DNA of 42,566 bases from Patescibacteria group bacterium. GTDB lineage: Bacteria > Patescibacteriota > Microgenomatia > UBA12405. The stretch is taken from NCBI GenBank assembly GCA_013387215.1, contig WARW01000001.1, positions 76,735-119,300 of the forward strand, given 5' to 3'. A program made the position numbers and the translations under genes. Under the pieces are notes generated by a model. That model was not told the origin of the DNA and made no database searches. It saw only the letters and a list, made by a program, of their open reading frames with translations. Shown here piece by piece: positions 17,122 through 34,324 of the stretch (position 1 is the first letter of the stretch; every line of letters starts with the position of its first letter).

Positions 17122-17193
17122 CCAGCGGGAGCCGGGCGGTTAGGCAACAGTCTGTAAAACTGTCGTAGGTTGGTTCAACTCCAACCCGCTGGA
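17122..17193 (+). tRNA. tRNA-Tyr (GTA), short variable region, C1-G72
   Basis: 72 bases fold into a cloverleaf: acceptor CCAGCGG/CCGCTGG, D stem GCC/GGC, anticodon stem ACAGT/ACTGT with loop CTGTAAA (anticodon GTA), variable region CGTAG (5 bases), T stem GTTGG/CCAAC with loop TTCAACT, discriminator A. CCA is not encoded. Bacterial tRNA-Tyr normally has a long variable arm and G1-C72; here the variable region is short and the first pair is C1-G72, as in archaea and eukaryotes. Position 8 is G and position 14 is G instead of the usual U8-A14. A run of T (17199-17206) follows. Confidence 0.92.
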
Positions 17194-21668: not shown

Positions 21669-23385
21669 TCAGAGTTTATTTCTAGGGCCACTACTGTTAG
21701 TACCAGAAAGATTTTCAACAAAATTTTTTTTAGTCGATTTTGAATCGACTCTCTCGATTTTATCGAGTGTTAGTACTAAGAGTTTGATCGTGGCTCAGGG
21801 TGAACGCTGGCGATGTGCCTAAGACATGCAAGTCGAGCGGGATTTGTTGTTTACACAGAGAACCTCCACAGTGAGGATATCTGTGTAAATAATAAGTTTA
21901 GCGGCGAACGGGTGAGTAATAAGTACGAACATACCCCTTTGTGGGACATAGTCCGCCGAAAGGCGGGGTAATTTCCCATAGTATCCTTCGGGATTAAAGA
22001 CGTAAGTCGCGAAGGGAGTGGCGTACTCGCTACCAGCTAGTTGGTGAGGTAATGGCTCACCAAGGCTATGACGGCTACCGGCTCTTAGCGGAGGGCCCGG
22101 CACAATGGGACTGAGACACGGCCCATACTTCTACGGAAGGCAGCAGTTAGGAATTTTGCGCAATGGACGAAAGTCTGACGCAGCGACATCGCGTGTGGGA
22201 TGAAGGCCTTCGGGTCGTAAACCACTTTTGTATTGGCATGAAGCCTTTACGAATAAGCAACTACTAACTACGTGCCAGCAGTCGCGGTAATACGTAGGTT
22301 GCAAGCGTTACCCGGTTTTATTGGGCGTAAAGCGTCTGTAGGTGGTCTCTCAAGTCTTATTTCAAAGACTCCAGCTTAACTGGAGACAGGGGTAGGATAC
22401 TGAAAGACTAGAGTTATATCGGGGTTACTGGAATTTGTAGTGTAGGGGTAAAATCCGTGGATACTACAAAGAACACCAAGCGCGAAGGCGGGTAACCAGG
22501 TATATACTGACACTCAGAGACGAAAGCTAGGGTAGCCAATCAGATTAGAGACCTGAGTAGTCCTAGCTGTAAACATTGTCTGTTAATTCTTCCGGCATTT
22601 ATGTCGGGGGGATGCAAGCTAACGCGTTAAACAGACCGCCTGGGGAGTATAGCCGCAAGGCCGAAACTCAAACGAATTGGCGGGGAGGCGCACAACCAGT
22701 GGAGCATGTGGTTCAATTCGAAACGAAGCGATGAACCTTACCTGGGCTTGAAATGTATCTGCACATCCACAGAAACGTGGATTCCTTCGAGGGTGATACA
22801 CAGCTGTTGCATGGCTGTCGTCAGCTCGTGACGTGAGTTGTTCTCTTAAGTGAGGTAACGAGCGCAACCCCTATCGTATGTTACTGTGTCATACGAGACT
22901 GCCTAGCATTATTTTGTTAGGAGGAAGGAGGGGACGACGTCAAGTCATCATGATGCTTATGTCCAGGGCTACACACATCCTACAATGGATTGTACAGAGG
23001 GTTGCAAGACCGCAAGGTGGAGCTAATCCCTAAAACAATCCTCAGTTGGGATTGCAGGCTGAAACTCGCCTGCATGAACCCGGAATTGGTAGTAATCGCA
23101 AATCAGCAGATTGCGGTGAATACGTTCTCGCCTCTTGCACACACTGCCCGTCAAATCAGCAAAGTTGAGGGTACCTGAAGTCTTACGTTTCGTAGGACCA
23201 AGGTAAATTCAGCGATGAGGGTTAAGTCGTAACAAGGTATCCGTACTGGAAGGTGCGGATGGATCACCTCCTTTGAGGAATTGATGTTCCGAATTTACTT
23301 CGGAACCAAGACTCACCATTCCTTAGTCGAAAGACGAAGGGTGGCTTTCTGGTACTAACAGTTTTAGCTCTAGAAAAAACTCTGA
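21669..23385 (+). repeat. 16S processing stem: long inverted repeat flanking the rRNA
   Basis: TCAGAGTT (21669-21676) and ACTGTTAGTACCAGAAAG (21693-21710) in the leader are exactly complementary to AACTCTGA (23378-23385) and CTTTCTGGTACTAACAGT (23345-23362) in the trailer. The CTAG segments between them also pair. This is the usual form of an RNase III processing stem around 16S rRNA. Confidence 0.9.
21773..23274 (+). rRNA. rrs: 16S ribosomal RNA, not linked to 23S
   Basis: Begins near AGAGTTTGATCGTGGCTCAG (21779 onward) and ends at GGATCACCTCCTTT (23274), about 1.5 kb, so no large insertion or intron. The anti-Shine-Dalgarno CCTCC is intact. The 530 loop reads GTGCCAGCAGTCGCGGTAA and the decoding region GCACACACTGCCCGTC. 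Helix 24 differs from E. coli at positions 783-785 and 797-799 with compensating changes, which shows a functional rRNA. Tandem hairpins (21732-21750 and 21753-21767) lie between the processing stem and the mature 5' end. A terminator follows at 23401 and no 23S, 5S or spacer tRNA is present. Confidence 0.98.
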
Positions 23386-33866: not shown

Positions 33867-33901
33867 AATATCGGACAATGTCCGGCTAAGTTTAATGATA
33901 G

Positions 33902-34324
33902 CGGAGATGCCAGGTAATGAACCCGGGTCCGAAAGCGGATTTTAAAAAACGTCTACAAGCTTATTTTGCTTTAAGCTTAATCTTTGAACCCAAAGCAAAT
34001 AAAAGTGTTCAAAGTGCCAATTATTTTCCGGAATTACCCGGATCTTTAATTTAATGAAAACTGGAACCCATTAAATTGCATTCTAGTTTGGTTAACACCC
34101 TCAGGTTTCCTCTAGAATGGGAAACTAGACGATGGTTGAGCTCAACTTAAGCAAAAGCTAAAGCTGGAGCAGCTGCTTTTTGAAAACCGAAGCCTTCGAA
34201 AGCAGTTAAATCAACACCAAAAGATTTTTTGGCATATATTATTTGACCCTGTTTAACGGCTCAATGGATCAAAGCCGGCTTGCAGTTTTTTAAAGTACTC
34301 ACTCCGTCGATGCAATACATCTCC
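33902..34324 (-). ncRNA. ssrA: Transfer-messenger RNA (tmRNA)
   Basis: Read on the minus strand, the 5' GGAGATG (34324-34318) pairs with the 3' CATCTCC (33909-33903) to form the tRNA-like acceptor. GCATCGACGG near the 5' end is the tmRNA signature and CCGGG TTCATTA CCTGG is the T arm. CCA is not encoded. An in-frame tag of about 28 residues runs from GCC at 34233 to TAA at 34147: AKKSFGVDLTAF then EGFGFQKAAAPALAFA. tmRNA with SmpB rescues stalled ribosomes and tags the product for proteolysis. The T loop has T where A58 is expected. The exact resume codon is inferred. Confidence 0.9.

Follow-up and report, generated by a model that had tools for sequence, protein, structure and literature searches.

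A class I tRNA-Tyr with the archaeal C1-G72 pair and an archaeal-type TyrRS in a Shapirobacteria-related genome

The window, which is the whole stretch of 42,566 nucleotides analysed here (G000:C1:76735-119300), carries a class I tRNA-Tyr gene that has no V-arm and displays C1-G72, and the only TyrRS of the same genome is of the archaeal type. The overall explanation, in which we have good confidence, is that this sole tRNA-Tyr of a member of the Shapirobacteria would be charged by the archaeal-type TyrRS and, with less confidence, would have a body derived from tRNA-Cys. The nearest named relatives of the TyrRS are Ca. Shapirobacteria, and the contig with the tRNA carries a bacterial 16S rRNA gene.

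The main result adds one more case to a phenomenon already in the literature. The occurrence of a C1-G72 tRNA-Tyr together with an archaeal/eukaryal-type TyrRS in CPR was described by Mukai, Reynolds, Crnkovic and Soll in 2017 (PMC5370408). The groups named in that paper include Parcubacteria, Microgenomates, Dojkabacteria and Katanobacteria, with several acquisitions, and V-armed as well as V-armless tRNA-Tyr are described, the latter in Roizmanbacteria GW2011_GWC2_34_23. Because Shapirobacteria, the lineage of the window, appear among the TyrRS groups of its Figure 2 tree, the phenomenon is not new, and the novelty implied by the initial annotation does not stand; known occurrence in bacteria was one of the refuting conditions that the annotation itself had set. 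What looks new is the apparent rebuilding of the tRNA body from tRNA-Cys. The text and legends of that paper mention no G8-G14, purine-purine 15-48, tRNA-Cys-like body or combination of C1-G72 with a bacterial TyrRS, and among the papers searched none dealt with G8-G14 or with Cys-to-Tyr remolding in CPR. The C1-G72/bacterial-TyrRS intermediates were likewise not met in the literature consulted.

The tRNA-Tyr gene of the window

The gene was read by eye and with a script in addition to ARAGORN and Rfam (Table 1). Its layout is CCAGCGG-G8-A9-GCC...GGC-A-ACAGT-CTGTAAA-ACTGT-CGTAG-GTTGG-TTCAACT-CCAAC-CCGCTGG-A, with CCAGCGG/CCGCTGG as the acceptor stem. The initial annotation had claimed a 5-base variable region, C1-G72 with discriminator A, and the absence of U8-A14, and the reading bears out all of these. 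The variable region is too short for the V-arm of a canonical class II tRNA-Tyr, C1-G72 stands in place of the canonical bacterial G1-C72, and G8 is accompanied by G14 at position 17135. The 15-48 pair is G-G.

Table 1. Coordinates of the tRNA-Tyr gene and its parts in the window, and loci of the C1-G72 tRNA-Tyr found with a bacterial-type TyrRS
Feature	Position or locus	Strand	Remark
tRNA-Tyr(GUA) gene, class I, no V-arm	17122..17193	+	ARAGORN, Rfam; covariation
C1, pairs with G72; archaeal/eukaryotic Tyr identity pair	17122	+	invariant in 30 family homologues
G8, replacing the near-universal U8	17129	+	coupled to G14 across the window family
D arm, 3 bp, G13-A22 mismatch, G14, G15	17131..17145	+	like the family tRNA-Cys D arm
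Anticodon GUA	17154..17156	+	
Variable region CGTAG, 5 nt	17164..17168	+	last base G48 (G15-G48 pair)
G72, partner of C1	17192	+	
Discriminator A73	17193	+	
C74	17194	+	encoded; rest of CCA not
Bacterial-type TyrRS with C1-G72 V-armed tRNA-Tyr, G035/G138	L281, L303 (G035:C2); L310, L316 (G138)		

The gene is real and maintained, because its cloverleaf has 99.8% paired cells across 30 window-family homologues and shows strong compensatory change, with 69 two-sided compensatory cells observed vs 16.4 in shuffles. C1-G72 and A73 did not vary in these homologues. C74 directly follows the discriminator in all 45 tRNA genes checked in the genome (45/45), and the full CCA is encoded in only 10. The window also contains a 16S rRNA gene (21772-23274) and a tmRNA gene (33899-34324).

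One tRNA-Tyr and one TyrRS in the genome

The genome is a metagenome bin, 98.6% complete. There are 46 tRNA genes above the Rfam cut-off, and those of class II are all Leu or Ser. A second tRNA-Tyr, for which the initial annotation had advised a search, was not found among these 46 genes; the window gene has the sole GTA anticodon. A PF00579 search of the genome returned two proteins, a bacterial TrpRS (L031) and a 381-aa TyrRS (L032:1402-2547) whose gene lies at C15:96654-97799, on a different contig from the tRNA-Tyr. The TyrRS scored 378 bits against NF006330 (cut-off 220), a PRK08560-type TyrRS model above whose cut-off 4 of 14 well-known control genomes fell, and it stayed under the cut-off of the bacterial model TIGR00234. 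An S4 domain was sought in this protein and is absent. Its best PDB match was 2CYC, the P. horikoshii TyrRS (50% identity, E 4.5e-115); the Thermus TyrRS 1H3E matched with an E of 1.5e-4. In other words, the sole TyrRS of the genome is of the archaeal type, as the initial annotation had predicted, and it lacks S4. The genome almost certainly holds an archaeal-identity pair of tRNA-Tyr and TyrRS.

The annotation had also proposed to ask whether tyrS groups with archaeal TyrRS and keeps the residues that read C1-G72, and both hold, the second to judge from the alignment. In an ML tree the main TyrRS clade of the window family (support 100) joins P. horikoshii 2CYC/7FG6 at 93. The residues aligned with M. 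jannaschii R132, R174, K175, D286 and K288 are kept in 30/30 window-family TyrRS, and the enzyme of the window genome keeps those aligned with R132, R174, K175 and D286. These M. jannaschii residues are presumably the ones that touch the anticodon and the 1-72 pair in the 1J1U complex. The TyrRS of f14, f16, f36/f10/f63 and f54/f60/f74 were placed elsewhere in the tree than those of the window family, and a second TyrRS type occurs in three window-family genomes (G003, G004 and G031). The tree agrees with repeated acquisition.

Several other unusual synthetases were encountered. The second TyrRS type of the window family, in G003, G004:C3 and G031 (L109, L087, L088), is also archaeal/eukaryal and only 36-38% identical; G004 has both types. 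G020 has a bacterial-type TyrRS (L333, on the 10-kb contig C37) and no class I tRNA-Tyr, reflecting contamination or real variation. A YbaK-type editing domain (PF04073) is fused N-terminally to the TyrRS of G025 (L304:985-2547) and to a TrpRS of G014 (L306:3574-5055), with a probable further fusion of this type in G002 (L098). A second, archaeal-like TrpRS is present beside the bacterial TrpRS in G014 (L306:415-1581), and possibly in G011:C30 and G002:C8; that of G014 resembles the TrpRS-A genes described by Mukai et al. (PMC5370408). G179 has a second, truncated copy of the N-terminal part of TyrRS (L334:813-1025), ~1.6 kb upstream of the complete gene.

Distribution in the window family and in Patescibacteria

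Class I tRNA-Tyr was found in 31/35 window-family genomes, an archaeal TyrRS above the cut-off in 29/35, and both in 27/35; the six genomes without a TyrRS above the cut-off are mostly fragmented assemblies. A survey of tRNA-Tyr across CPR, also suggested by the initial annotation, was made on an even draw of 145 Patescibacteria, counting genomes with a readable tRNA-Tyr. Archaeal TyrRS goes with G72 (19/19 genomes, one with a fragmented tyrS), and bacterial TyrRS goes with C72 (82/83). G72 thus occurred in 19/19 archaeal-TyrRS vs 1/83 bacterial-TyrRS genomes (Fisher p 1e-19). V-armless tRNA-Tyr was present in 12 archaeal-TyrRS genomes and in 0/83 bacterial-TyrRS genomes.

The exception is G035, which combines a TIGR00234-type TyrRS with S4 and a class II tRNA-Tyr with C1-G72. 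G138, of the same genus, is the same by its tRNA and has a near-identical TyrRS, and G179, of the same family, has an archaeal TyrRS with a near-identical tRNA-Tyr. Because G035 and G138 combine them, C1-G72 appears compatible with a bacterial TyrRS if the V-arm is kept. As to the orthogonality to usual bacterial TyrRS that the initial annotation expected, these two genomes show, to judge from their sequences, that C1-G72 alone need not rule out a bacterial TyrRS. This genus is a possible intermediate in the identity swap. Its state may precede the swap or may reflect a reversion to a bacterial TyrRS, and it offers a plausible path for the swap.

The G8·G14 core

Of the 32 family tRNA-Tyr, 22 have G·G and 10 have U-A at positions 8 and 14, and none has a mixture. 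U8 was present in all tRNA-Cys compared and in the other 43 tRNAs of the window genome compared. So strict a coupling speaks for continued contact between G8 and G14. With its G8·G14 core, this tRNA offers a test made by nature of which parts of the 'universal' tertiary core a tRNA can do without. In G025, a further tRNA-Tyr-like gene close to tyrS (G025:C8:410908-410972, minus strand; L304) has A1-U72, G8 and G14.

Likeness of the tRNA body to tRNA-Cys

Where does the body of this tRNA come from? Similarity was computed over positions 8-65 without the anticodon and the variable region. Family tRNA-Cys was the best match for 32/32 window-family tRNA-Tyr (0.72-0.92), with class II Tyr reaching at most 0.78, and it was also ahead of all other tRNAs of the genome. 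Within the window genome, the Tyr-Cys similarity of 0.755 ranked only 11 of 946 pairs; the median of unrelated pairs was 0.549. G004 Tyr has the same D arm as G022 Cys (TAGCAAAGCGGTTATGCA), and between G009 Tyr and G001 Cys the D arm differs at 1/18 positions. Only 6 nt separate the Cys gene from the Tyr gene in G003.

Family tRNA-Tyr and family tRNA-Cys also have structural features in common, among them a 13·22 mismatch. A purine-purine 15·48 was found in 30/32 family Tyr (G·G 10, A·A 20) and 29/29 family Cys (G·G 28, A·A 1), and elsewhere in 2/25 other-family Cys, 0/17 class II Tyr and 1/43 other tRNAs of the window genome. G15·G48 is a known feature of tRNA-Cys in E. coli (PMC9976931). Among other-family tRNA-Cys, G15-C48 was present in 22/25. 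In an ML tree of tRNAs, family Tyr nests within family Cys. The class I Tyr of f16 also falls inside family Cys, which is surprising in view of the separate clade that the TyrRS of f16 forms.

Alternative origins of the tRNA

The V-armless tRNA-Tyr might instead be the family's own class II tRNA-Tyr after deletion of the V-arm and drift of the core, its likeness to Cys being convergent. Such a loss in place clearly happened in f14, where G082 and G099 have a class II body with a 6-nt variable region, 0.88 similar to class II G042/G113; as expected of a positive control for this other route, the ML tree places the V-armless Tyr of f14 inside class II Tyr. Moreover, the D arms of class II Tyr and Cys are somewhat alike anyway, and a loose Tyr-vs-Cys split is not rejected by the AU test. 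However, that test did reject trees in which the family Tyr descends from, or is sister to, class II Tyr of the same class (p 0.013-0.034, dlnL 42.6), G15-C48 is seen in 17/17 class II Tyr and never in family Tyr, and the D loop of family Tyr is two bases shorter than in class II Tyr, as in tRNA-Cys. We regard this reading as unlikely.

Still less probable is a transfer of the tRNA-Tyr from an archaeon along with the TyrRS gene. In its favour, the tRNA has archaeal identity elements, Mukai et al. (PMC5370408) suggest an archaeal origin for some CPR tRNA-Tyr, and a tRNA-Tyr-like gene lies near tyrS in f16, f36, G016 and G025. But the archaeal-type references, tRNA-Tyr of M. jannaschii and of the archaeal virus HGTV-1, were only ~0.55 similar in core to family tRNA-Tyr, which does not exceed the median for unrelated pairs in the genome (two references; DPANN left out). 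They also depart from the family in the D arm and the 15-48 pair, and in the window genome the tRNA-Tyr and tyrS are on different contigs. A BLAST search of phages and plasmids with the M. jannaschii tRNA-Tyr matched only bacterial-type tRNAs. As for contamination, in which the tRNA or TyrRS contig would come from another organism, the bin has 2.8% contamination, but the tRNA-Tyr is on a 246-kb contig with a 16S rRNA gene and the TyrRS on a 322-kb contig. This possibility is rejected as negligible because the pair recurs in 27/35 independent family genomes.

An origin of the window-family body from tRNA-Cys, by recruitment or gene conversion, is the reading towards which we lean, because of the best matches, the shared 15·48 and 13·22 features, the nesting in the tree and the rejection of class II descent. 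The tree tests back it only in part: with ~53 usable sites, the AU test did not reject a plain Tyr-vs-Cys split (p 0.43) and gave p 0.096 for monophyly of family Tyr. A single recruitment would therefore fit no better than two recruitments or than conversion between the Cys and Tyr genes. The label 'archaeal type' given by the initial annotation therefore holds for identity and probably fails for ancestry, the core resembling the family's bacterial tRNA-Cys.

A possible path of the identity change

How could such a replacement occur? Archaeal TyrRS requires C1-G72, A73 and the anticodon (PMC9976931), and the body of tRNA-Pyl is charged by an archaeal TyrRS when given C1-G72/A73, and not if these are changed (PMC6337575). 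The archaeal-type TyrRS of the window genome would charge the window tRNA-Tyr by reading C1-G72, A73 and the GUA anticodon. The three tRNA-Pro of the genome also have C1-G72, so the anticodon must keep tRNA-Pro out of tyrosine charging.

According to the phylogeny, the family ancestor acquired an archaeal TyrRS. C1-G72 would then have made the bacterial TyrRS dispensable. The bacterial V-arm would not be needed because the archaeal-type TyrRS lacks S4, and since this enzyme type reads the acceptor end and the anticodon, the tRNA body would have been free to change. A duplicated tRNA-Cys gene most likely took over by a one-base change of GCA to GUA together with acceptor changes. In most of the family U8-A14 would then have become G8-G14, which are strictly coupled in the alignment and presumably pair. 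We see an even chance that the lineage dropped its class II tRNA-Tyr after TyrRS capture, recruited a tRNA-Cys duplicate as its only tRNA-Tyr and rewired the core, with living relatives retaining other steps of the swap: a V-armed C1-G72 tRNA beside a bacterial TyrRS, the same beside an archaeal TyrRS, and a V-arm lost in situ.

It was long believed that tRNA-Tyr identity does not change within a domain of life. A lineage already known to break this rule shows how a change of Tyr identity could go stepwise. It suggests that where a synthetase reads only the acceptor end and the anticodon, the body of a tRNA for a different amino acid can take the place of the original one. TyrRS/tRNA-Tyr pairs of this kind, which have diverged in nature, are also leads in the search for orthogonal pairs for genetic code expansion.

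Comparison with known systems

The window system has the anticodon, A73 and the class Ic catalytic domain in common with the canonical bacterial tRNA-Tyr/TyrRS, whereas the canonical system has a V-arm, G1-C72 and S4, and the window system has no V-arm, C1-G72 and no S4. With M. jannaschii/P. horikoshii it shares C1-G72, A73, the enzyme type and the equivalents of M. jannaschii R132, R174, K175 and D286, but the U8-A14, G15-C48 and 4-bp D stem of M. jannaschii tRNA-Tyr are missing from the window tRNA. Its likeness to a tRNA-Cys of the E. coli type (G15-G48) lies in the purine-purine 15-48, the 13-22 mismatch, the D-loop length and, in the family, some identical D arms. It differs from tRNA-Cys in having GUA, C1-G72, A73 (U73 in Cys) and a variable region of 5 nt (4 in Cys), and most window-family tRNA-Tyr differ in having G8-G14. 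The closest parallel is the CPR system described by Mukai et al. (PMC5370408), with which the window genome shares a C1-G72 tRNA-Tyr, an archaeal/eukaryal TyrRS without S4, and a CPR host.
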